Below are positions 1,267 to 47,760 of a stretch of 50,307 nucleotides of DNA, in pieces; position 1 is the stretch's first letter; every line of letters starts with the position of its first letter. Position numbers and translations under genes: made by a program. Source of the stretch: a virus. The stretch spans positions 1-50,307 of the IMG/VR virus record IMGVR_UViG_3300038309_000012, one strand, 5' to 3'. Below the pieces are notes generated by a model, which was not told the DNA's origin, ran no database searches, and worked only from the letters and a program-made list of their open reading frames with translations.

Positions 1267-1293
1267 TAGCCCGTTTAATTTTTGAACAGCCTA
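1267..1293. repeat. 27-bp dispersed palindrome, copy 1
   Basis: Variant with arms TAGCCCGTTTAA and TTGAACAGCCTA around a TTT centre. Its right edge (CTA, 1291-1293) is the TAG stop of the leftward glycosyltransferase gene. It fills the gap between that gene and the exported protein gene. Confidence 0.85.
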
Positions 1294-2349
1294 TAATAAA
1301 TTCATAGCGTTTACAATTTTAGGTTTGTATACTTTATCTATTCGCTTATTTACTTTTGTAGCAATAGGGAAAAGACTAGCATCTTGCTTATATATGCGTA
1401 AATTAGTTGTACTTTGTTTACCTTTGAATTGAGTTACTATTGAATCATAACTAACTTTAGTATTTTTGTTTATCCATCTACGACATTCAGCGCATAGGTC
1501 AAAAACTCTATTTTTTACACGTTTTAGGTATTTCTCATCAGCACGATTTAACAGCTGTGAAAAGCGAACGTCTAGTAATTCTTCTCCACCTATTACATAG
1601 GCAGCTACCAGCATGCCTAAAAAACGAGGATTATTAGGTGAAGCTTTATCTATATAAGAAGCAGTAAAGAAGCCTCCATCATTGAAGGGGCCTAAATGGA
1701 CTACACCAGCTGTTGTTAGAGACCAATTAGAATAACCGAATAATAAAGGTTTAAAACTAATTAGAAAATCTCCTCCTCCCCAACACAGACGATGAGTCGA
1801 TAACGGGTAATAACCCCTAATATGCTCCCATACTGAACGTTTGATAACCATAGGCATACTTCGAAGTGGGGATTTGAAGTAAGGGAGGGTAGTCTTGTAA
1901 CCATGTAAGCGTAAGCCAGTGAACTTTTCAACGTCTCTATCGCAAAAGGAGTCTAGTTCATGAGCAGATGAATAGCACATAAGGCCAAAAAGTATGCCTA
2001 GGTTATCAATGCGATCTGCGAATGTTACTAATTTGTTAATAGCATTTTTCATTACTAGACAGTGTGAGTCTAGAATAAGAATATATTCACCTGTTGAATG
2101 CTGCACAGCTAAATCACGCGCGCTAAATAAGCAAGCAAAGTTTTGTTCTATTATTTTAACTTCGTTTTTAGTAGTGAAAGCATCAAATAAGTCGTATAGA
2201 GTTTGCCGTTTAGCTGAATCTTCAGAATTATTAACTATAATTATCTCAGCAGTAAAAGAACAACTCTTTAATGATTCCATAACTGAACGTATAGTTATTA
2301 GGCATCCAAAAGGATCATTTCTTTCTGAGATAATTATAGATAATTTCAT
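1291..2349 (-). CDS. Family 2 glycosyltransferase (second of pair)
   Basis: A 352-residue protein with a GT-A fold signature. It begins KLSIIISERND, carries EIIIVNNSED in the nucleotide-sugar region, and has a D-S-H metal-binding motif in ILILDSHCLV near residue 95. A WGGGDFLIS motif follows later, as in polypeptide-GalNAc-transferase-like GT2 enzymes. It should transfer a sugar from a nucleotide donor to a protein, glycan or nucleic-acid acceptor in the cytoplasm; the acceptor is unknown. Its ATG overlaps the stop of the upstream paralogue by one base (TGATG), so the two are translationally coupled and probably act in sequence or as a pair. The C-terminus after about residue 270 is basic and unlike the partner's. 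Enzyme class is well supported; target is open. Confidence 0.85.
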   Translation of the reverse strand: MKLSIIISERNDPFGCLITIRSVMESLKSCSFTAEIIIVNNSEDSAKRQTLYDLFDAFTTKNEVKIIEQNFACLFSARDLAVQHSTGEYILILDSHCLVMKNAINKLVTFADRIDNLGILFGLMCYSSAHELDSFCDRDVEKFTGLRLHGYKTTLPYFKSPLRSMPMVIKRSVWEHIRGYYPLSTHRLCWGGGDFLISFKPLLFGYSNWSLTTAGVVHLGPFNDGGFFTASYIDKASPNNPRFLGMLVAAYVIGGEELLDVRFSQLLNRADEKYLKRVKNRVFDLCAECRRWINKNTKVSYDSIVTQFKGKQSTTNLRIYKQDASLFPIATKVNKRIDKVYKPKIVNAMNLL

Positions 2350-3341
2350 CAGTTATTCCAAGGCTGAGTGGTTAATAGTTCGTCAAAAGTGATAGTTTTG
2401 TGCGCATCTAGCCAATCTTTTTCTTTCTGGCCCATTTGTATAGCTGCATCCCACCACTTGTCTATATCTATGAATTGACCGAAGCGACGTTTTATAGAAG
2501 CTTTGTTCCTTTTCATCATAGATTTACCACCTATAACATAACAACTTATCAGGAAACCTAATGAGTGTGGGCCTTCTCCTGAAACTGACCATAGGCGATA
2601 ACGATCTCTAGCAGTTACTTTAGCTACTTTTACAGCATTAGGGTTAGTTGTGGTGTCTACTTTTGGGAAAGGTCCGATGTGAATGCCTGGAGAAGTAGGC
2701 ACTGCGTAGTTCTTATAGCCGAGCATCCAAGGTTTGATGCCGATATGCATGTCTCCACCGCCCCAACTAAGACGGTGCTCTGCAAGCGCACCATAGCCGT
2801 TAATAGTTTTCCATAGCTCTCTACGACAGATCCAAGGCATACCTTTCCATGTGATTGTTCTAACTGTGTCATATGATTTGTTCCAGTTTCCTAGTTCACA
2901 TTCGCTCATGTCTCGATCATGACGAGAGGAAGTTTCATGTTGATGTGCCCAGTTGATAGGTGCATGAGCGAAACCTATAGTTGGATCACCCTGTCTTGAT
3001 TCCATAAAGTTGTAGAGATCAAGGAACATATCGTTGCCTATTAGCATGTGGGAATCAACACAAGCGATGTATTTTCCAGTTGAATGTTCAATAGCTGTTT
3101 CACGTGCTGTGAAGAGGCAAGGATAGTCTTGACGATAAACTTTCAGTAGCCCATCTGAGATGTAGCCAGAAGGAAGTACACTTTTAATTTTGTCATACCA
3201 TTCAGGGTCGGAATTGTCTACTATGATGATCTCGCAGTTTTCAAGGCCCAGAGGCTTGAGTTCTTCAACACATGATCTAAAAGTGACTGCGAGCATAGAG
3301 ACGTCGTTTCGGTTAGATATGACTACTGAAAGTTTTTTCAT
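2349..3341 (-). CDS. Family 2 glycosyltransferase (first of pair)
   Basis: A 330-residue GT2 protein starting KLSVVISNRNDV. It has CEIIIVDNSDPEW in the donor-binding region, the metal-binding D-S-H in ACVDSHMLIG near residue 98, and WGGGDMHIGIKPWMLGY as acceptor-side motif. It is clearly paralogous to the downstream enzyme: order and motifs are the same, but the sequence is well diverged. It sits directly after a small hydrophobic protein gene with no gap. Likely role: modification of a virion protein, phage DNA or host surface glycan. A UDP-sulfoquinovose synthase homologue at 17863-19053 could supply an unusual sugar donor, which is inference from co-occurrence only. Confidence 0.85.
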   Translation of the reverse strand: MKKLSVVISNRNDVSMLAVTFRSCVEELKPLGLENCEIIIVDNSDPEWYDKIKSVLPSGYISDGLLKVYRQDYPCLFTARETAIEHSTGKYIACVDSHMLIGNDMFLDLYNFMESRQGDPTIGFAHAPINWAHQHETSSRHDRDMSECELGNWNKSYDTVRTITWKGMPWICRRELWKTINGYGALAEHRLSWGGGDMHIGIKPWMLGYKNYAVPTSPGIHIGPFPKVDTTTNPNAVKVAKVTARDRYRLWSVSGEGPHSLGFLISCYVIGGKSMMKRNKASIKRRFGQFIDIDKWWDAAIQMGQKEKDWLDAHKTITFDELLTTQPWNN

Positions 3342-3530
3342 CTATTTCTCGTCAAGAGGTTTGTCAGTTACAAAACGGAGTACTATGTTAAGTACAGTGT
3401 AGAACGCTGTTACAGTTTCTACAGACATTTCATAACCAAATGATTTGGAAATTGCTACTATAGCGGCCATTAGTGCATTAATATTCACTGTTTTGCTCTT
3501 ACCAGTGAGTGCAGCTATAAGTTTATTCAT
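3342..3530 (-). CDS. Small conserved phage protein, partly hydrophobic
   Basis: A 62-residue protein with a short basic N-terminus (MNKLIAALTGKSK), a moderately hydrophobic stretch around residues 18-30 and another near 42-52, and the ending VTDKPLDEK. Small proteins of this layout are common in phage late regions and usually have no assigned role. A holin or membrane-associated function is possible but the hydrophobic parts are weak. Its start lies 8 bases inside the end of the upstream HTH gene and its stop abuts the glycosyltransferase start, so it is part of one compact operon. Confidence 0.6.
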   Translation of the reverse strand: MNKLIAALTGKSKTVNINALMAAIVAISKSFGYEMSVETVTAFYTVLNIVLRFVTDKPLDEK

Positions 3531-4071
3531 TGACTACCTCCTTATCTTCTATAGTGACTAAAAGCCCAGATTCACGTGCAGCTTTTAGTCCACGCTCTTT
3601 GAAAGCATTTATCTGATCCATATTAGCTGTGACGTTCATGCTTTGAGATTGGACTTTAGTTGGTGCTCTGTGTCCTGCGATATCCATTACTATAGTATCA
3701 GCAGTTTCTTTTTTCATCTTGTAATCGACAGAAGGATTTTCAAAAATTTCTGAGTAAACTTCAAGTGCGCGTTCAGTCAGTTCATTGACTCGCTGGTGGA
3801 ATTGGATAGCTTCTCCATCCCGTTCTTCACGAAGTCTAGAAAGTTTTTCCTTACCTAGATCAGAGTTAATAGTGTTAGAGACAGTCTGGGGGCTTATGTT
3901 AAGAAGTTCGGCGATCTGTGTATTTTTGTACCCTTGGAGTTTAAGCAGGATGATCTCATGAGAGTGTTGCCATAGTTGTTGTATATTAATTTGACGCGTA
4001 CCCTCTTCGACGCGGCGCTTGTCTGGTATTCTTACTTCGAAACCGTATAGTGATTTTTCTGTCCCTTCCAT
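3523..4071 (-). CDS. HTH protein, probable terminase small subunit
   Basis: A 182-residue protein. Residues about 36-66 form a helix-turn-helix (LKLQGYKNTQIAELL then NISPQTVSNTI), a DNA-recognition unit. The middle is a predicted helical bundle or coiled coil, and the motif DIAGHRAPTKVQ follows near residue 137. This pattern, an N-terminal HTH and then a helical oligomerisation region ending in an AGH-P motif, resembles small terminases that recognise the packaging site for the large subunit at 46228-47760. It is the first gene of the leftward operon and sits beside the control region, so a transcription regulator is the main alternative. ATG at 4071 is preceded by AAGG-type ribosome-binding sequence. 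Confidence 0.6.
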   Translation of the reverse strand: MEGTEKSLYGFEVRIPDKRRVEEGTRQINIQQLWQHSHEIILLKLQGYKNTQIAELLNISPQTVSNTINSDLGKEKLSRLREERDGEAIQFHQRVNELTERALEVYSEIFENPSVDYKMKKETADTIVMDIAGHRAPTKVQSQSMNVTANMDQINAFKERGLKAARESGLLVTIEDKEVVNE

Positions 4072-17368: not shown

Positions 17369-17782
17369 ATGTCACTTACAGACTACAGCCAGTACGAATC
17401 AATGATCCAAGACGCCGAAGCACCTAAAGCCCTTCCTGCTGGTACGGAAGTAACTGCACGTATTATCTCAATTCGAGAAGGCGTAAACGAAGAGACTGGA
17501 ATCGGTTGGAGGATGGTAACCTATGATATTCCAGACGAACCAACCGCCAGAGAAATGACCGACTTCTTTGGCGTCCTCGATCAAGAAAAGATGGACGCTA
17601 AACGCTTCGCACGTGAACTGTATAAGTTCAAAAACTTTGCCGCAGCTATTGGCCTTGACTATACCCAACCATTTGATTGGGAAGAACTGGTTGGCCGAGA
17701 GTGTTGGGTGATTCTTGGAATTCAGAAAGATGAAGAATTCGGTGATAAGAATCGTGTAACTAAGTATTTGTCTGGAAATTAA
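17369..17782 (+). CDS. SSB-like OB-fold protein (DUF669-type)
   Basis: 137 residues. An acidic N-terminus is followed by LPAGTEVTARIISIREGVNEETG, then WRMVTYDIPDEP, and a final ECWVILGIQKDEEFGDKNRVTKYL. The beta-strand pattern, with E/D-rich turns and the neighbouring Sak4-like ATPase, matches phage SSB-like DUF669 proteins, which coat single-stranded DNA and load the recombinase. Its strong AAGGAGAAAACAACT ribosome site and the hairpin after the stop point to high expression. The identification depends mainly on context. Confidence 0.65.
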   Translation: MSLTDYSQYESMIQDAEAPKALPAGTEVTARIISIREGVNEETGIGWRMVTYDIPDEPTAREMTDFFGVLDQEKMDAKRFARELYKFKNFAAAIGLDYTQPFDWEELVGRECWVILGIQKDEEFGDKNRVTKYLSGN

Positions 17783-17862: not shown

Positions 17863-19053
17863 ATGCCCAACCATCGTGTTTTAATCCTAGGAATTGACGG
17901 CTACATTGGTTATCCTCTAGCACTACACCTTATCAAGCAAAATTTCGAAGTGTGTGGAGTAGATAACCTAAGTCGTCGTGATAGAGTACGCCACATAGGT
18001 GGAGCGTCTTTAACCAACATTGCTTCCTTTGATGATCGCGCTAATTATTTATCCTCGTTTAATAATTTCATAGATAACATGTCTCGTATTGATGTAGATT
18101 ACTACGATACAATATCTGCTGCAATAAAATATTTCAAACCTGATACAATAGTTCACCTAGCGCAAATGCCTAGTGCTCCATGGTCTATGATCAATGCCTA
18201 TCATGCGTATCAGACACAGCATGAAAATTGTATGGCTAATCTTAATGTACTCTGGGCTATGAAACAGCATTGCCCTAATGCACATTTGTTGAAGTTAGGA
18301 ACTATGGGAGAGTATGGCACACCTAATTGTGACATACCTGAAGGAGAGATTCCTAAGGAATGTTTAACTGGTGGTGTAGGCCCTTATGTAGGAGGTTACG
18401 ATGCTGGATGCCCTATGTCAGGCCTAATCTTCCCACGCCAACCTGGATCATTCTACCACCTATCCAAAGTCTTCGATACTTACAATGTAGACTTCGCTTG
18501 CCGTAACTGGGGCTTACGCTCTACTGATGTAATGCAAGGAGTAGTATATGGTCTTAATAAACCCAACAATAACATTGAAATTACTAGATTCGACTACGAC
18601 GAATACTTTGGCACTGCTATCAATCGTTTCTGCACTCAAGCTATTATCGAATATCCCATTACAGTCTACGGAAACGGAAACCAGACAAGAGGATATCTAC
18701 CACTTAAAGATTCTATCCAGTGCTTAACCTTAGCAATAGAAAATCCTCCTGAAGATGGAGAATGTAGGACATTCAATCAGTTTGAGGAAATCTATTCCAT
18801 TAACGAACTCGCTGACATCGTAAATCGTCAGGCACAAAAGCTAGGACTTAATCCAGGAATCACGCACATTTCTAATCCACGAAAGGAAAAGGAATCACAC
18901 TATTACAATCCAGAACATAGTAAACTTTTAGACTTAGGTTACAAACCTACAGATGATCTTGAAGGTGAGGTAGGAATCCTACTCCAACAACTCATGCCTT
19001 ACAAAGATAGGGTTAATAAAAAAGTTATTATGCCTAAGACTAAGTGGGAGTAG
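17863..19053 (+). CDS. UDP-sulfoquinovose synthase homologue (SQD1-like)
   Basis: 396 residues, an extended SDR of the NAD-dependent epimerase/dehydratase type. The NAD site is LGIDGYIGYPLALHL at residues 9-23. HLAQMPSAPWSMI and KLGTMGEYGTPN (catalytic Thr about 147) follow, then SFYHLSKV (Tyr about 198, Lys about 202), GVVYG, TALNRFC-like GTAINRFC, and TRGYLPLKDSIQC. These segments, in this order, match plant and bacterial SQD1/SqdB, which join UDP-glucose and sulfite to make UDP-sulfoquinovose. An extra loop lies before the Tyr motif. In a phage it may provide a sulfonated sugar for the two glycosyltransferases at 1291-3341 or alter host sulfolipid or glycan. Substrate is inferred; some relatives act on other UDP-sugars. 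Confidence 0.8.
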   Translation: MPNHRVLILGIDGYIGYPLALHLIKQNFEVCGVDNLSRRDRVRHIGGASLTNIASFDDRANYLSSFNNFIDNMSRIDVDYYDTISAAIKYFKPDTIVHLAQMPSAPWSMINAYHAYQTQHENCMANLNVLWAMKQHCPNAHLLKLGTMGEYGTPNCDIPEGEIPKECLTGGVGPYVGGYDAGCPMSGLIFPRQPGSFYHLSKVFDTYNVDFACRNWGLRSTDVMQGVVYGLNKPNNNIEITRFDYDEYFGTAINRFCTQAIIEYPITVYGNGNQTRGYLPLKDSIQCLTLAIENPPEDGECRTFNQFEEIYSINELADIVNRQAQKLGLNPGITHISNPRKEKESHYYNPEHSKLLDLGYKPTDDLEGEVGILLQQLMPYKDRVNKKVIMPKTKWE

Positions 19054-19312: not shown

Positions 19313-19573
19313 ATGAACAAAGACACAGGTGAAATATTATCTTATTATAACATACCTAAAGAAGAAAAAGAAAACTACGTACCTCTAACAATGCGCGAAG
19401 CTAAATACCTAGTTAAAAGAAAACCAGACGCACGTAAAAACTGGATGAGAAACAAGCCTTGCCCTTGTGGATCTGGAAAGAAATTCAAACGTTGTTGCTG
19501 GGGTAAGAAAACTCCACAGAAAATATACGAGGAGGAAGTATCATGTCTGACAAACCATACATCCCAAGAATAA
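19313..19573 (+). CDS. SEC-C motif protein
   Basis: 86 residues. NKPCPCGSGKKFKRCC at about residues 48-63 is a textbook SEC-C zinc motif, known from the SecA C-terminus and many small proteins that bind SecB, ribosomes or nucleic acid. The N-terminal part (KDTGEILSYYNIPKEE) is acidic and unrelated to SecA. The tail overlaps the next gene by 31 bases. Its partner in the cell is unknown. Confidence 0.8.
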   Translation: MNKDTGEILSYYNIPKEEKENYVPLTMREAKYLVKRKPDARKNWMRNKPCPCGSGKKFKRCCWGKKTPQKIYEEEVSCLTNHTSQE

Positions 19574-19785
19574 CTTTCGAAGTAACACTAGAACAAAAAG
19601 AACGTGCGGACAAACACCTAGGTCTTTATGGCACTAGGAAAGCGGTCTTATCTAATGTCCTTGATTCTGTTTTAGACCTTATAGAACAACATGGATCTAT
19701 TGTAATAGGCATCCTTATGGAAAAAGATAAGCCTAAGCAAGTGCTTAAATCTTTAGTGCAAGTTCAGAAGAAGGTGGAGGAATAA
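19543..19785 (+). CDS. Hypothetical 80-residue protein
   Basis: It starts SDKPYIPRITFEVTLEQKERADKHLG, then TRKAVLSNVLDSVLDLIEQHG, and a Lys-rich end. The beta strand followed by two helices resembles ribbon-helix-helix or replication-control proteins, so a DNA-binding role is possible. GAGGAGGAAGTATC precedes the ATG, a strong ribosome site located inside the SEC-C gene. Confidence 0.55.
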   Translation: MSDKPYIPRITFEVTLEQKERADKHLGLYGTRKAVLSNVLDSVLDLIEQHGSIVIGILMEKDKPKQVLKSLVQVQKKVEE

Positions 19786-21876: not shown

Positions 21877-22032
21877 ATGAAAGATACAAAAGTTATTAAG
21901 TTAATAAACGATAAGTTTAAAATTAAACTATTTAAACATTCTGCAGTAATAGCTCCTAATATATATGCATTATTTTTAGATGTACTACATGAGGTATTAG
22001 ATGATATAGAAAAGGAAAGGTTAAATAGATGA
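21877..22032 (+). CDS. Hypothetical 51-residue protein
   Basis: It starts KDTKVIKLINDKFKIKLFKHS, then NIYALFLDVLHEVLDDIEKERLNR, two probable helices. CTAAGGAATAAACT precedes the ATG. Its TGA overlaps the polymerase ATG as ATGA, so translation feeds directly into the polymerase. Unknown role, perhaps a polymerase accessory by position. Confidence 0.55.
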   Translation: MKDTKVIKLINDKFKIKLFKHSAVIAPNIYALFLDVLHEVLDDIEKERLNR

Positions 22033-24542
22033 AACAAACCTATATCCACCCATCAGGTAATCCAAAAGCTAAACTTGCGATCTGTGGTGAACAGCCTGGG
22101 TTTCAAGAAGTTCATGCTGGCAAGCCATTCGTTGGCCCAGCAGGACAAGGCTTAGATGATTGCCTCAAGATGGCAGGAATACTACGAAGTGAACTATACA
22201 TCACCAACGTTATTAAAGATTTAGATGCACCATTAGCTCGTTATATTAACATAGCGCCTAATGGTAAGTCTACTATCTCCAAAGAAGGATATCAGTACAT
22301 CGAGGAGCTTGGCGAAGAACTACGCGCACTTGACCTTAATTGCATTGTAGCTCTTGGTAATATAGCCTTACTCGCGCTGACCAATCGTACTGGAATTACC
22401 AAGTGGCGTGGGTCTATCCTTGAATCTACTATAGTCCCAGGACTTAAAGTAATTCCTACATTCCATCCAGCCACATTCATTCCACCTAAGTTTAACTACC
22501 TAAACAAACCATTGATAACTATGGATTTGGAAAGGGCTAAAAAAGAAAGTGCTAATGCGTCTATCAATACAAGAACACGCTATGTGGTTACTTCACCTAC
22601 TTATGATGAATCCATCAGAGAACTTAATAGTTGTATCTTCGACGGAAGAGCAGGCAAAACTATTGATGTCGACATTGAAGTCATTAATGAAGAACTCGAC
22701 TGTTTTTCAGTGTGTAGAAATGAGAACCTCAGCATGTCAATCCCACTCAGATATGACAAAGGTGACTATTTCACGGTTGAGCAAGAGTTAGAAATTTTAA
22801 AACTCCTTAGCAAAATAATGTCTGACGACCAAATATCTAAACGAGGCGCTAACTTTATCTTCGATACTCAGTTCTTATTTCACAAATACGGGATGGAACC
22901 TAAGGGAGAACTCCACTGCACGCAGATAGCTCAGAAAATAGCCTTTCCAGATTTCAACGCTGGCCTAGACTTCGTAACCTCTATGCACACTGACATACCG
23001 TACTATAAAGCAGACGGTAAAAAGTGGATGAAGACTGGTACTGGTACTTGGAAAGAGTGGTGGACTTACAATGGGATGGATACTATATCAACAGCAGCTG
23101 CACACCCAAACCAGATAAAAGAATTAGAAAAACAATTAAACATCGAAACCTACGATCGCCAACGTAAGTTGATAAAGCCTCTAATCTACATGTCAGAACG
23201 TGGTATTAAGATTGATGTAGATGGAATGCTTAAACTAAAGAACAAAGAACAAGCTGAACTCGACAAGCTAATTGAAAACCTGCATGAAGAAGTAGGTTAT
23301 GAGATTAATCCTAATTCTCCAGCCCAGCTTAAAGAATATTTCTATGGGAAAAGCAAAGGGCAACTTGGTATAAAAGCTTACAAAGCTAAAGGCGCAAACG
23401 GTTATACTATCTCTACCAATGTCGATGCACTAAAGCGTATCTCTCGTCAAGGGTACAAAGCAGCGCAGATTATGTTAGACATTAGGTCACGTAGTAAACG
23501 AATATCAACTTACTTAAACATTAAAAAGGTGGATAAAGATGGAAGATATAGAAGTTCATATAAGCCAGTTGGGGCTGAAACAGGGCGTTTGGCATCAGGA
23601 GAAACTATCTTTGGTACCGGAGGGAATCAACAAAATTGGCCTCATGACCTCCTTAGATTTTTTCTCTTTGATGATGGATACATTGGATATTCTTTTGACC
23701 TATCTCAAATCGAAAACCGTATTGTGGCCTACGTCGGTGGAGTCATATCACAAATTGAAGCTTTCGAACGAGGAATAGACCTCCACTCTATGACTGCTTC
23801 AGTCATCTTTAACAAACCTTATGATCAAATAAGTGATGAAGAAGGTTCTTGTTCTTTAGGTGACGGTCGTAAGTCAGAACGTGACTATGGTAAAAAAGGT
23901 AATCATGCAACTAACTATGACACCGGATACAAAACTTTCGCACTAAAGAACGAAATGCCTGAAGCAGAAGCTAAGATGGTGTTAGAGAGGATTCACCGTG
24001 GGTATCCGCAAATTAGAGGAGGTTATCACATACTGATTCAAAACATGCTAAAAGAATCACGTATTGTTACTAACTTGTTTGGGCGACGTAGACTTTTCCT
24101 CGGTCCTATATTCCCATCCTCTATGACTCCAACCTCAGCTTGTATGGATACCTATCGTGCTGCTTATGCACACTTTGCTCAATCTTCCTGTGCCGATAAG
24201 ATTAATGAACAAGGAGTTGAATTCATATACTACGACCAAGACAAGTTTGGGCCAATAGAATTACTAACACAGATTCATGACTCAGTAGTATTTCAAATTC
24301 CTTTATCAATACCTTGGAGAGAGCATGCTAGGATGTTATTCCAGATAAAACGTTCACTTGAGACCCCACTCTATTGGAAAGGAATAGAGATTAAAACTCC
24401 TTGTGATTTGGCCGTAGGACTTAACATGTATAAGAAGCAAATGGTAGAACTCAAAAGTAAGAAGTTTCCTACTGATGAAGAAAATCTTGCAATTAGGTTA
24501 GAAGAAATTTATAAACAATTGATTAGTGAGGAGGAAGAGTAG
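22029..24542 (+). CDS. Uracil-DNA glycosylase fused to family A DNA polymerase
   Basis: 837 residues. The first about 175 are a family-4-type uracil-DNA glycosylase: ICGEQPGFQEVHAGKPFVGPAG, ITNVIKD, and TFHPATF near 145-151 (abridged here; each motif stands separately in the protein). A 3'-5' exonuclease part starts with DVDIEV near 213. The polymerase follows: motif A FDLSQIENR near 555, motif B with R-x3-K-x7-Y at about 616-628, motif C QIHDSV near 748. Motif C has Ser where E. coli Pol I has Glu, and by my alignment His stands at the Phe762 position. It is the replicative polymerase of the phage. The fused glycosylase would couple uracil removal or sensing to synthesis. Confidence 0.9.
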   Translation: MKQTYIHPSGNPKAKLAICGEQPGFQEVHAGKPFVGPAGQGLDDCLKMAGILRSELYITNVIKDLDAPLARYINIAPNGKSTISKEGYQYIEELGEELRALDLNCIVALGNIALLALTNRTGITKWRGSILESTIVPGLKVIPTFHPATFIPPKFNYLNKPLITMDLERAKKESANASINTRTRYVVTSPTYDESIRELNSCIFDGRAGKTIDVDIEVINEELDCFSVCRNENLSMSIPLRYDKGDYFTVEQELEILKLLSKIMSDDQISKRGANFIFDTQFLFHKYGMEPKGELHCTQIAQKIAFPDFNAGLDFVTSMHTDIPYYKADGKKWMKTGTGTWKEWWTYNGMDTISTAAAHPNQIKELEKQLNIETYDRQRKLIKPLIYMSERGIKIDVDGMLKLKNKEQAELDKLIENLHEEVGYEINPNSPAQLKEYFYGKSKGQLGIKAYKAKGANGYTISTNVDALKRISRQGYKAAQIMLDIRSRSKRISTYLNIKKVDKDGRYRSSYKPVGAETGRLASGETIFGTGGNQQNWPHDLLRFFLFDDGYIGYSFDLSQIENRIVAYVGGVISQIEAFERGIDLHSMTASVIFNKPYDQISDEEGSCSLGDGRKSERDYGKKGNHATNYDTGYKTFALKNEMPEAEAKMVLERIHRGYPQIRGGYHILIQNMLKESRIVTNLFGRRRLFLGPIFPSSMTPTSACMDTYRAAYAHFAQSSCADKINEQGVEFIYYDQDKFGPIELLTQIHDSVVFQIPLSIPWREHARMLFQIKRSLETPLYWKGIEIKTPCDLAVGLNMYKKQMVELKSKKFPTDEENLAIRLEEIYKQLISEEEE

Positions 24543-35862: not shown

Positions 35863-37167
35863 TTAGCTAAGTGTGTTGTTCAGGCCAACACCATTAAGCA
35901 GTGCACATTTCTGCGCAAGGCCGAACTCAAGACCAGCTTCAGTGAGAAATTCCTCGTTCAAACCATCTACACGTCTCTGACCATAACCAGAAGAATGTTC
36001 CTTCTTGCTGTTCTCCCCATAAAAAGTAGTATCATCAATATAACGATATGTAAGTTCTTTAGGTTCGAGAATCAGCATCATGTTACGAGTAGTAGGATCA
36101 TGGCTAAACAGAGGATGGGTTTTCATATAGATGGAACCAAAAGGAGTCATCCATCTAGTAATTTCCATACCATAGGTTTTCTGCCCAGGCATGAGTTGTA
36201 CCTGACCGCCAGTCATAGCAAGTGCATCAATACCTAGCAGTGCGCCAGAACCTATGAGAGCGAGTTTCTCGTTTGATCCATACCGGAAAATCTGTTCAAG
36301 CATTGCCTTAAACCAGGTTTCTCCACCGCTTGCCCAGGTAGTACCAGAGTAATCAGTATTGAGTGTATAGTCATCACAGTTAGCACTAGCATACTGACGA
36401 ATGAAGTTGATAGCACCCATAGTGGTACGCTCAGGTTTACCATTATCACCTACGTTCTCAGTCCTAATACCCCAGAGAAAAGCGAGTTCCATTTCCCAAG
36501 AATGATTTTCCAGAGCTTCAGCCTTTGCCTTCTGGTAGTCATTAGGAGTACGAAGTCTAGTCTTCATAGCAGTACGAGTCATGCTAAGAGGAGACCTGAA
36601 TATTTGAGTATAGTTGTATACTTTGGTAGGATTCTGTGCAATAGCATCAGGCATCTCACCGCCTTCAGGGTTAATATTACCAATGATCTTGAAGTTATCG
36701 CAGTCACTGAGGTCATGAGTAGTTGAATTATCATCAGCTTCGAGAAGCTTAACAGCTAGTGTAGTATAGGTAGTACCTCTAGTTACATCAGTAACTTTGG
36801 CATTCACATCTACACGGTAATCACTAGCATCACGCAGAAGAATCTGATGACCATTACGAATTCGCTGAGCTACTGAAGTAAGGACCTTAATAAACAGTGT
36901 ATCGCCAGCTACTCCACCAGTTACATAAGCAGTAGAGAGATCAGCATTAGTATAAATACCGTACACATCGCCGCTAACAGCAGTCTGTTCCTGTGTCCAC
37001 CAATTAAACTCAGGGTCATCAGTTGCCTGACCACCCATCATAGAGAGGAGAGCAGTAAGTGGTGCCATACCATTAGGATACAGTTTAAGAATCTGCTGCC
37101 GCCAATTTTTAGGCCGTTGGTCAGTTACCCAATCTCCAGTTCCACGCATTCCAAGAAATCCAGACAT
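35863..37167 (-). CDS. Major capsid protein (SU10/DUF5309-like)
   Basis: 434 residues. It starts SGFLGMRGTGDWVTDQRPKNW and has YPNGMAPLTALLSMMG, DPEFNWWTQEQ, VYNYTQIFRSPLSMTRTAM, ELAFLWGIRTEN, TMGAINFIRQ and YGMEITRWMTPFGSIYMKTHP. This matches the SU10-type (DUF5309) HK97-fold capsid proteins. It builds the icosahedral or elongated head with the portal at 39172 and the scaffold at 37604. TAAGGAGGTAATAAT before the ATG is the strongest ribosome site among late genes, as expected for the most abundant protein. Confidence 0.85.
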   Translation of the reverse strand: MSGFLGMRGTGDWVTDQRPKNWRQQILKLYPNGMAPLTALLSMMGGQATDDPEFNWWTQEQTAVSGDVYGIYTNADLSTAYVTGGVAGDTLFIKVLTSVAQRIRNGHQILLRDASDYRVDVNAKVTDVTRGTTYTTLAVKLLEADDNSTTHDLSDCDNFKIIGNINPEGGEMPDAIAQNPTKVYNYTQIFRSPLSMTRTAMKTRLRTPNDYQKAKAEALENHSWEMELAFLWGIRTENVGDNGKPERTTMGAINFIRQYASANCDDYTLNTDYSGTTWASGGETWFKAMLEQIFRYGSNEKLALIGSGALLGIDALAMTGGQVQLMPGQKTYGMEITRWMTPFGSIYMKTHPLFSHDPTTRNMMLILEPKELTYRYIDDTTFYGENSKKEHSSGYGQRRVDGLNEEFLTEAGLEFGLAQKCALLNGVGLNNTLS

Positions 37168-37195: not shown

Positions 37196-37588
37196 TTAAA
37201 CAGCTACTGTAGTAGGAGCTACAGTTGTAGGTGTAGGTGTAGTACCAGTAAATGTTGTTACTGACTGAGCTACAAACCAAGCTAGGCCATCAGAGAAGCA
37301 AAGCAACTTATCGCATTTACCATTGAGCACTACATCACCTGCCCAACACTCAGAGTCATCTTTGTCCTGGACAGTAATAGTGTTAACTGCATCTGCATTA
37401 CGGCAGACGATGGAATACCATCTTCCACGAGCTTCAGCTACTGGCGGAAGGGTAATTGTAATAGCCCCAGTGTCTCCATCTGCTGAAGGGCGTACTACGT
37501 AATCTCGAGTTGACATTTGATAGTTGGCAATCGGATCTACGAATTTGTCAACTACTTGATGATGTTGTTCGGATCTATTTTCAAGCAT
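37196..37588 (-). CDS. Head-associated hypothetical protein
   Basis: 130 residues. ISVA-like beta domain with VVRPSADGDTGAITITLPPVAEARGRWYSIVCRN and DAVNTITVQDKDDSECWAGD, abridged: the core is a small beta-barrel at about residues 28-105, ending in a Thr/Pro repeat tail (TGTTPTPTTVAPTTVAV). Small proteins beside the capsid gene often decorate the head. ACGGAGGTAAATCT precedes the ATG. Role inferred from place. Confidence 0.55.
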   Translation of the reverse strand: MLENRSEQHHQVVDKFVDPIANYQMSTRDYVVRPSADGDTGAITITLPPVAEARGRWYSIVCRNADAVNTITVQDKDDSECWAGDVVLNGKCDKLLCFSDGLAWFVAQSVTTFTGTTPTPTTVAPTTVAV

Positions 37589-37603: not shown

Positions 37604-38401
37604 TTAGTTATTAAGAGCATTATCCATTTCAGAAATTTCATTCAGGAACGGATCAACATCTTGTTTTGTTTTAGTCCTAAGCGCACTCTTTTTAGAAGTC
37701 AGCTTTGGAGGACCTGATTGTTTAATAGCTTCTTTTTTAAGGTCTAATCGTTTTCTTACTTCCGGACCAATCTCTTTAAGGATCTCTTGATAAGAACGAT
37801 TAGGATCTTTACCCACAATCTCGTCAAATACTGTACTAACGACTTTCTTAAACGGCACAAGGTCTGGATTATTTTCATAGAAATCCTCGCTAGCCTTTTT
37901 AAGTGAAGTTACAATTTCTATATTGTTTTTTACTATAGAGGGAATGTCCATAAGAATTCCCTGTCTTTCTGTAATTGCCTCCTTTCTTGCTTCTTTTCTA
38001 GCTGCTATATATACTTTGTTTAAGATAGCATTCAAAGCATCTTTGTTCATTGTTAGTTCGTCTAAATCAACTTCGCCAAGAAAATCTTCTATCTTGATAG
38101 GAGCTTCTGTAGAAGGTGTTGTTGTAGAAGGAGCCTTATCTTTTTCCTTCAACATACTTTCAAGTTCAGTAATTTTATCACACAATTTCTGAAATTCAGT
38201 AGGTTCTTCAACAGGAAGTTCAGTAATAGGGACTTCAGTGCTTGGAAGTTCCGTTACTGGGGACTTAGTACTAGGCATATCAGTAGTTGGCGCATCTGTA
38301 ATAGGATCATCTGCTGGCACCTCAGTCATAGGTGCACTAGTAGCCGCAGTAATAAGTTCTTCCATTTCATTAAGTTGATTAATAACATCTTCTTTACTCA
38401 T
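37604..38401 (-). CDS. Capsid scaffolding protein
   Basis: 265 residues from ATG 38401, preferred to ATG 38413 because GAGG lies just before it. It is acidic, helical and low in aromatic residues. Residues about 20-70 are a Thr/Pro/Ser/Glu-rich run of degenerate T-[ED]-x-P-x-T repeats. The rest is coiled coil (EFQKLCDKITELESMLKEKDK, NKVYIAARKEARKEAI) with a basic C-terminal part (KKSALRTKTKQD) that would contact the capsid. It lies between portal and capsid genes, the standard scaffold position. Confidence 0.75.
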   Translation of the reverse strand: MSKEDVINQLNEMEELITAATSAPMTEVPADDPITDAPTTDMPSTKSPVTELPSTEVPITELPVEEPTEFQKLCDKITELESMLKEKDKAPSTTTPSTEAPIKIEDFLGEVDLDELTMNKDALNAILNKVYIAARKEARKEAITERQGILMDIPSIVKNNIEIVTSLKKASEDFYENNPDLVPFKKVVSTVFDEIVGKDPNRSYQEILKEIGPEVRKRLDLKKEAIKQSGPPKLTSKKSALRTKTKQDVDPFLNEISEMDNALNN

Positions 38402-38414
38402 AGCTAACCTCATT

Positions 38415-45991: not shown

Positions 45992-46231
45992 TATTTTATC
46001 CTTTATGAGTTGATATATAGTATTAAACTTATCGTCTATTTTCTTATCTAAATTATCAATCTTTTCACCGACTACTAGAAAGCAAGATTTACGTCTTTCT
46101 ATGCAGTGAACATCTGATACTTTACTTTCTAATTTATCACTTACTCCTTTAGCGCCTAACCATTTGCCTATTAAAGCGGATATAAGAGATAACAAAATAC
46201 TTCCTAAAATCCAAACAGTAATATCTTTCAT
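45989..46231 (-). CDS. Small membrane protein, spanin or holin-like
   Basis: 80 residues from ATG 46231, which overlaps the terminase stop (ATGA) with GGAG upstream. One transmembrane helix lies at the N-terminus (ITVWILGSILLSLISALIG), then a CIERRKSC pair of Cys and a coiled-coil helix (EKIDNLDKKIDDKFNTIYQLI). The plan, one N-terminal span and then a coiled coil, resembles inner-membrane spanins or holin-associated proteins, but no outer-membrane partner or endolysin is nearby. It may have another membrane role. Confidence 0.55.
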   Translation of the reverse strand: MKDITVWILGSILLSLISALIGKWLGAKGVSDKLESKVSDVHCIERRKSCFLVVGEKIDNLDKKIDDKFNTIYQLIKDKI

Positions 46232-47760
46232 ACAAGTCTCCAATTAGACATAGGTGGATCGTAGTCAAGTTCTTCATATTCAGCTTCTATATCATCAGGG
46301 TTTTCACGAGGAGAAAAGTATCTTTCTCCTAGCTCTAACATTTCTATTACGTAAGCTAGACAGTCCATTAAATCCCAGAGGGCTGATCTAGGAAACATTA
46401 AAAGTTGCTGTTCGAGTTTAGTTATTGTAGCACATGAGGCATTGTGGTAGATATAACCACCTCGGTAGTAAGGAACTAATTCTTTAACACGCAGTTCCTT
46501 TTTCATTCCACCGCGAGCTTTAAGCCAGACTAGTTCAAAAAAACTACCACGCCTAAACATTTCGTTTTTTATAGGTTGTTTTACAAATTCATTTAGTGAA
46601 GTTTCCTCAAAGCCTATTACCTTTGCACCTAGACGAGTAGCCATCCCGAACATTTCGTCGTATATTTCATCTGGGTATAGTTTGGCTGAGATTGCGTCCC
46701 TGACGTAAATTTTAGCACTTGTTAAATCTAGGCCTAGTCCTATAATAGCAGTTTCATCTGAATGTATTTTTACTGTCTTAGCTGGATCAACTATTACTAC
46801 TGTTTCAATATTCTTACTGTGTTGTAGTTCTGCATCTAGAATATTTAAATCAGTTTCTTGTCTTGTTTTAGTTCCTTGAATGTTGTAGTAATGAAAGTAT
46901 TCTTTTTTAAAACTAGCGTCTTTAGTTGAAATTGGTAAGTTGCGTAGTTCTTGAAAAAAAGCATCAGTTTCACCGGAAGCTAATGCTGCTTCCCATTTAG
47001 ACTTAATAACTTCATGCGGCACGAAATTAGGATCAACAGATTGTAAGTTATCATCACAAGCTTCTAATCGTACTGACTTCCAGTCAGGAGAATCTAGAAG
47101 GTGTTGAAGTAGAGAATCTTCATGCTTTAGGGTATCTATATAAATAATCTTCCAGTTCATATGTGTTTGAGGAATAGCTTCAATAACATCAGAAAAGAAC
47201 CAGTTTTTGATTCCTTTTCTAATTTCCTCGTTCATAATTTTTTTCTTATCTTCTAGATCATCTATTACAAATAATCCTGGGCGATCGTTCCTGAAAAGTA
47301 CACCACGAACTTGTTGTTCAGCACCACGTGGCCAGACTAAAGTATCGTAAGCTACCCAAGCTTTCTTAGAAAAAACCTCTTCGAATTCATCATCTGCGTA
47401 GGTCTTAGGTTTTACTGATCCAAATAGTTGTCTGATTGGTTTATTAGTTATTAATTCTCTTCTTAAATTTTCTGTCTGTAGTGAGGCAGCGTCATGTGAT
47501 TTATTAATATAGCAGATAAATCCAGTATGTCTGAATAGAATGTAACGCGCCATTAAGCCTAAAGCGACTATAGAAGTCTTTCCCCAACCACGAGGAGCGG
47601 CAATTGCTATTTTATTCCAAGGACCATCAATCAGTTCAAATATCTTATCATGCACAGCAGGAGAGAAATCTAGCTTGAAACGATCTGGGAAGAACGTCTT
47701 AGCTGTCATTCTTGTAGAGACTGAGCATAGTGAGAGTATTTGTTCTGTTTGTTTGTCCAA
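46228..47760 (-). CDS. Terminase large subunit
   Basis: 510 residues. Walker A AAPRGWGKTS is at residues 54-63, and Walker B LFVIDDLED at 163-171. The C-terminal RNase H-fold nuclease has VVIVDPAKTV, VIGFEETS and LWDLMDCLAYV, supplying the acidic residues. It pumps and cuts phage DNA at the portal. The first start codon is TTG at 47760 with AGGA upstream, and the next ATG (codon 18) has no ribosome site, so the rare start is likely real. Together with portal and capsid type it points to a podovirus. Confidence 0.9.
   Translation of the reverse strand: MDKQTEQILSLCSVSTRMTAKTFFPDRFKLDFSPAVHDKIFELIDGPWNKIAIAAPRGWGKTSIVALGLMARYILFRHTGFICYINKSHDAASLQTENLRRELITNKPIRQLFGSVKPKTYADDEFEEVFSKKAWVAYDTLVWPRGAEQQVRGVLFRNDRPGLFVIDDLEDKKKIMNEEIRKGIKNWFFSDVIEAIPQTHMNWKIIYIDTLKHEDSLLQHLLDSPDWKSVRLEACDDNLQSVDPNFVPHEVIKSKWEAALASGETDAFFQELRNLPISTKDASFKKEYFHYYNIQGTKTRQETDLNILDAELQHSKNIETVVIVDPAKTVKIHSDETAIIGLGLDLTSAKIYVRDAISAKLYPDEIYDEMFGMATRLGAKVIGFEETSLNEFVKQPIKNEMFRRGSFFELVWLKARGGMKKELRVKELVPYYRGGYIYHNASCATITKLEQQLLMFPRSALWDLMDCLAYVIEMLELGERYFSPRENPDDIEAEYEELDYDPPMSNWRLV

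Follow-up and report, generated by a model that had tools for sequence, protein, structure and literature searches.

Sulfoquinovose is known from sulfolipids and from a few archaeal N-glycans. When sulfite is withheld, SQD1 and Agl3 yield UDP-glucose-5,6-ene (PMC4388408, PMC8987622), and replacement of Arg101 by alanine abolishes the activity of Sulfolobus Agl3 (PMC4388408). A viral homolog of the same enzyme as that studied here, a putative UDP-sulfoquinovose synthase, has been reported in a Mu-like virus of the Cariaco Basin, where it was read as an auxiliary gene aiding host N-glycosylation, with partner genes and acceptors not named (PMC7785012). The original prediction for our locus knew of no standard phage role for such an enzyme, and had overlooked this report. 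Glycosylation of virions is described for mycobacteriophages, where phage glycosyltransferases act and both capsid and tail proteins bear glycans at their C-termini (Freeman et al. 2023, as cited in PMC12619734). The citing account, in the part that bears on this system, describes neither an SQD1 donor gene nor mucin-like repeats. Within our partial coverage of the literature we found no report of mucin-type O-glycosylation of phage particles.

The DNA analyzed, which we refer to as the window, spans 50,307 bases and constitutes a virus record of IMG/VR. An open reading frame at 17863-19053 on the plus strand runs uninterrupted from ATG to stop and encodes a protein of 396 amino acids, assigned by homology, NCBIfam and active-site residues as an SQD1-family NAD-dependent UDP-sugar enzyme (putative UDP-sulfoquinovose synthase). 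Arabidopsis SQD1 aligns with residues 4-396 (E 1e-107, 364 bits), whereas the next solved relative in the PDB, a UDP-glucuronate decarboxylase, scores 37 bits. The NCBIfam model NF041015 for UDP-sulfoquinovose synthase matches over its full length with 471.9 bits, compared with 32 bits for dTDP-glucose dehydratase and 21.5 bits for GalE, and on these PDB and NCBIfam scores an ordinary epimerase is excluded. The prediction that the characteristic SQD1 segments lie in order within an intact gene of this family, and not in that of a common epimerase, is thus borne out. The curated equivalog cut-off of NF041015 is 575 bits, which is missed by the window protein and also by related cellular homologs; because its 472 bits lie under this cut-off, we regard the enzyme as a relative and do not call it an equivalog. 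At the level of sequence we take it as confirmed that 17863-19053 encodes a genuine, full-length SQD1-family enzyme.

The window protein shares with SQD1, SqdB and Agl3 full-length homology, the NAD-binding GxDGYxG and the TMGEYG motif. The catalytic residues Thr145, Tyr182 and Lys186 (SQD1 numbering) are kept as T147, Y198 and K202, Met146, Glu148 and Tyr149 are retained as M148, E150 and Y151, and His96 and Gln209 are also retained. It differs from these enzymes in its score below the curated cut-off and in Arg101, which is replaced by Pro103. Proline occupies this site in 170 of the 171 homologs compared, comprising all the viral and nearly all the related cellular sequences, while arginine is found in plant SQD1, S. 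meliloti SqdB and Rhodobacterales SqdB, from which the phage clade stands apart. Since proline replaces the arginine essential to Agl3 in every viral homolog, sulfoquinovose as the exact sugar is a presumption. The sulfite pocket could be altered such that the enzyme makes another C6-modified UDP-sugar for the same virion O-glycosylation, for example UDP-glucose-5,6-ene or the adduct of another nucleophile. The loss of Agl3 activity on changing Arg101, the formation of the 5,6-ene without sulfite and the sub-threshold NF041015 score would all be in keeping with this. Against it, the active-site Thr, Met, Glu, Tyr, Tyr and Lys are all retained, and a close pair of cellular sequences (L391 and L392) has proline in one and arginine in the other, so that proline may be tolerated at this position. 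We consider a different sugar rather unlikely, while giving it real weight. As a separate observation, SQD1 position 99 (window residue 101) is glutamine in the window alone, and glutamate in all other homologs examined.

Inteins tend toward conserved sites in functional genes. In a related contig the SQD1 gene (L018:3406-5598) carries a 334-amino acid intein inside the catalytic motif, at GTMGEYG^TPN, with Cys1 at its start, a Gly-Asn/Thr junction at its end and a LAGLIDADG_3 domain. A related intein lies at the same insertion site in the SQD1 of L335. Given this preference of inteins, their presence here fits with an active enzyme.

A virus-wide search found at least 115 SQD1 homologs in IMG/VR contigs, of which 18 are close homologs from the phage family of the window with 54-61% identity to its SQD1; chance is therefore excluded as the source of the match. 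The phage collection contained no close homolog, giving two matches of 22-23% identity, and nothing in it matched the window at the DNA level. In a quick tree the SQD1 proteins of the window family, a sister clade and one further contig form a supported viral clade. This is nested in a larger group of other viral contigs and of Desulfobacterota and Nitrospirota homologs, and plant SQD1 falls outside that group. Two of the cellular genes that lie nearest (L019 and L023) belong to glycan clusters with glycosyltransferases, and the more distant viral SQD1 genes accompany short-chain dehydrogenase (SDR) and glycosyltransferase genes. Cellular loci were checked for a neighboring sulfolipid transferase as a guide to the enzymes with proline, and open reading frames were unclear in those that are GC-rich. 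An SDR resembling the protein cluster c53 of the glycan island described below lies near or adjoining SQD1 in L019 and L023 and in the viral contigs L309, L312, L320 and L334; it is possible that this is a UDP-sulfo-sugar epimerase.

The gene lies in a conserved order on the early strand. On its 5' side are a PD-(D/E)XK nuclease, Sak4, a small ssDNA-binding-like protein and, in most relatives, a 103-amino acid protein and a dCMP deaminase; on its 3' side are two small proteins, a ParB-methyltransferase, a UDG-DNA polymerase and a primase. The early-strand position beside recombination genes that had been noted from the window alone is supported. The window itself lacks the deaminase and the 103-115-amino acid protein. 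The latter (cluster c8) has no Pfam match, and a guess that it is a nucleotide-modification domain was dropped. The immediate neighbors, an upstream gene in the ssDNA-binding-like position (17369-17782, plus strand) and a downstream gene for 80 amino acids (19543-19785, plus strand), are kept with or without SQD1. A search with the polymerase returned 52 loci, and in about half of them SQD1 is missing and its slot is simply empty, so that the phage family constitutes a natural experiment. The polymerase of the window (22029-24542) is a family A enzyme that carries, fused at its N-terminus, a uracil-DNA glycosylase domain of the family 4 type, an arrangement conserved across the phage family. 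In L007 (5855-9286), L116 and L120 it is longer by about 310 amino acids within the polymerase domain, which is probably another intein. Among the scanned open reading frames of the window is one for a DNA glycosylase of pyrimidine dimers (PF03013, E 3e-25).

We have exploited this variation by clustering all open reading frames of 27 near-complete contigs of the family, 17 with SQD1 and 10 without. The contigs are metagenomic, the open reading frame calls simple and the trees quick. Only one protein cluster covaries strongly with SQD1, a GT2-type glycosyltransferase (henceforth GT2) encoded at 2349-3341 on the minus strand of the window. It ranks first, being present in 15 of 17 contigs with SQD1 and 1 of 10 without (p = 1.1e-4), and the next cluster has p = 0.04. 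Counting by tblastn raises the first figure to 16/17 against 1/10 (p = 2e-5). The single SQD1-bearing contig without GT2 is one whose terminase region is absent (G033), and the single contig with GT2 alone (G066) has a distant copy (39%) in another location. On a core-gene tree SQD1 has undergone about nine changes by gain or loss, no fewer than with shuffled labels, and GT2 changes in the same direction in 7-8 of 8 independent pairs. Shared descent thus does not explain the link between the two genes.

In most members GT2 is located in a variable glycan island between TerS and TerL, and is thus linked to the structural genes. In the window the island is bordered by a TerS-like HTH protein (3523-4071, minus strand) and the terminase large subunit (46228-47760, minus strand), the contig ends falling inside it. 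Adjacent to GT2 is another, divergent member of its glycosyltransferase family with 30% identity to it (1291-2349, minus strand). The same island in relatives contains SDRs, methyltransferases, more glycosyltransferases, a fusion of a radical-SAM/B12 protein with a glycosyltransferase, and a sulfotransferase-like protein. The fusion (cluster c42; L037:4046-6061 and relatives), a B12-binding radical SAM protein joined to a glycosyltransferase of GT2 type, is commoner in phages lacking SQD1 and is possibly an alternative glycan system. The sulfotransferase-like protein (L046:18378-18965 and G052) has a HIPKTGGT motif discerned by eye and no Pfam match.

A structural model of GT2 has a pLDDT of 84.5 and a pTM of 0.87. 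Its best 32 matches in the PDB are all polypeptide GalNAc-transferases, with E values of about 1e-11 to 1e-12 and TM scores of 0.5-0.66, and a sequence profile also retrieves several of these among other GT-A enzymes. Invariant in 24 GT2 sequences are D96 S97 H98, forming a DSH motif, and W193 G194 G195 together with H221, corresponding to WGG...H, and both motifs are shared with the polypeptide GalNAc-transferases. The DxH is presumably the metal motif. The likeness extends to the candidate acceptors, which are Thr/Pro repeats. There are clear differences, however. GT2 comprises 330 amino acids with a single catalytic domain (one Pfam GT2 domain only), has 13-19% identity to the polypeptide GalNAc-transferases and has neither the lectin domain that the animal enzymes carry at their C-terminus nor room for one; its presumed donor would carry sulfoquinovose rather than GalNAc.

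The nature and position of GT2 bear on where the sugar would go. The original prediction had offered virion, phage DNA and host surface as targets, and of these the virion is clearly favored, by the late GalNAc-transferase-like enzyme that covaries with SQD1 and by the mucin-like tails on virion-strand proteins described below, while the other two are disfavored. Hypermodification of the phage DNA by UDP-sulfoquinovose would be in accord with the early-strand slot between the recombination genes and the ParB-methyltransferase and UDG-polymerase, and with the dCMP deaminase nearby in relatives. Yet no gene of DNA metabolism follows SQD1: among the 27 contigs no DNA-modification cluster covaries with it, and the deaminase, methyltransferase and polymerase occur whether or not SQD1 is there. 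A scan of the window proteins by family gave no thymidylate-synthase-like or DNA glucosyltransferase match, and the transferase that does covary is late and resembles protein O-glycosyltransferases. We regard modification of DNA as quite improbable. The gene might alternatively be an auxiliary metabolic gene for host sulfolipid, host N-glycans or host surface polysaccharide, as proposed for the Cariaco virus (PMC7785012) and in keeping with the glycan clusters around the nearest cellular homologs and the SDR and glycosyltransferase genes beside distant viral ones. We think this unlikely, since the transferase that accompanies SQD1 is a soluble GT-A enzyme of the terminase island, tied to virion genes, and the tails that make up the third covarying trait belong to virion-strand proteins. 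The further suggestion that the product is wanted early does not follow, because gene position cannot show it; the covarying partners are late, and in the sister clade it is the capsid gene that immediately precedes SQD1.

The third trait is found in the proteins encoded on the late strand. In phages with SQD1 these carry mucin-like repeats of the PTTLAPTT/PSTEAPSTE type, with PTTLAPTT the commonest unit. Counting tandem [ST]xxP[ST]xxP motifs, a pattern that was set after looking at the data and for which further contigs were then checked, gives 3-81 per genome with SQD1 and 0-1 without (Mann-Whitney p = 1.7e-5). The G+C content of the two groups does not differ (p = 0.28), and shuffled proteins contain 0.1-1.5 motifs. 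The proteins with at least two tandem motifs number 38, and every one of them is encoded on the same strand as the capsid protein.

The clearest instance is c21, a spike-like protein of 130 amino acids (37196-37588, minus strand) adjoining the gene for the major head protein (phrog_1328; 35863-37167, minus strand). Its C-terminus has a TTPTPTTVAPTTVAV tail rich in Thr and Pro, with codons at 37199-37252 on the minus strand, and c21 is the candidate acceptor. The body of c21 is alike in all genomes, and a tail of the TTxPTT type is present in 14 of 14 genomes with SQD1 and in none of nine without. The shortest is GTTAAPTSEAA (G008 and G009), and under a stricter rule that counts these two as tail-less the tail still follows SQD1 in 6 of 7 independent pairs. 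Among the further contigs the tail occurs in six distinct members with GT2 or SQD1 (G108, G109, G118, G070, G069 and G050), and in none of five negative contigs in which the relevant region is covered (G122, G123, G111, G045 and G048); four tail-bearing fragments end at TerL and do not cover the island. Exceptions are G129, where GT2 is broken by a stop and c21 lacks the tail, and G070 and its sister G072, which have few tandem motifs. For a model of c21 (pLDDT 82.8) the structural matches are T4 gp9, a tailspike depolymerase and the capsid spike of phage Pa223; the last residues of the model are of low confidence, as expected for a free tail. The protein has no PHROG match.

Adjacent to c21 is c6, a protein in the scaffold position (37604-38413, minus strand) with the Thr/Pro linkers APTTDMPSTKSPVTELPSTEVP... 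and APSTTTPSTEAP. These linkers are Thr/Pro-rich in most genomes with SQD1 and strongly acidic, rich in Glu and Asp, in those without, with a median net charge per residue of -0.14 and -0.26, respectively (p = 1e-4). The contrast would make sense if the linker threonines bear acidic sugars. The same exchange of one composition for the other is what might be expected of interchangeable linkers, and could be taken to mean that the tails are unglycosylated flexible linkers, related to SQD1 and GT2 only through a cassette that travels with host choice. The three elements occupy separate loci, however, and the match between them persists over about eight independent changes; we consider this explanation very improbable.

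The relationship extends in part to the sister clade (L301, L329 and L330). Here SQD1 is part of the head operon, placed between the major capsid gene, which it adjoins on the 3' side, and the next structural gene. The c21 protein has a short Thr tail ending in TTPSPITTTEPL or ETTPAETTEQT, GT2 is present in two of the three contigs, and tandem repeats are rare. In twelve contigs with more distant SQD1 homologs, outside the window family, no such GT2 was found and the tandem motifs are scattered and number 0-5, which confines the demonstrated mucin link to the phage family of the window.

We therefore favor a role for SQD1 in modifying the virion, and the following scheme can be proposed. The SQD1-family enzyme would oxidize and dehydrate host UDP-glucose and would then add sulfite, most likely generating UDP-sulfoquinovose. 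The soluble late GT-A enzyme, with its likeness to polypeptide GalNAc-transferases, would move sulfoquinovose, or a glycan containing it, to threonine residues within Pro-Thr-Thr repeats of virion proteins, chiefly those in the C-terminal tail of c21, and the virion would thereby gain an acidic coat. That virion proteins are O-glycosylated in some manner seems to us probable. That the phage encodes a mucin-type O-glycosylation of its virion for which SQD1 supplies the activated sugar, and that this sugar is sulfoquinovose, we hold to be somewhat more likely than not. We advance tentatively, at a little under an even chance, the fuller idea of a bacteriophage 'mucin', in which a soluble prokaryotic GalNAc-transferase-like enzyme starts O-linked sulfoquinovose, or a glycan bearing it, on PTT-repeat stalks and spike tails to create a dense sulfonated coat, the donor, transferase and acceptor repeats being gained and lost together from separate loci.

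A puzzling lone gene has in this way become one of three parts of a system that can be tested, since the transferase and the acceptor tails are now specified. If the scheme is correct it would provide a role for some, at least, of the unexplained viral SQD1 homologs, which number more than 100. A protein-linked sulfonated sugar on the particles of bacterial viruses, attached by means of the fold of the animal mucin transferases, would be a new virion chemistry.
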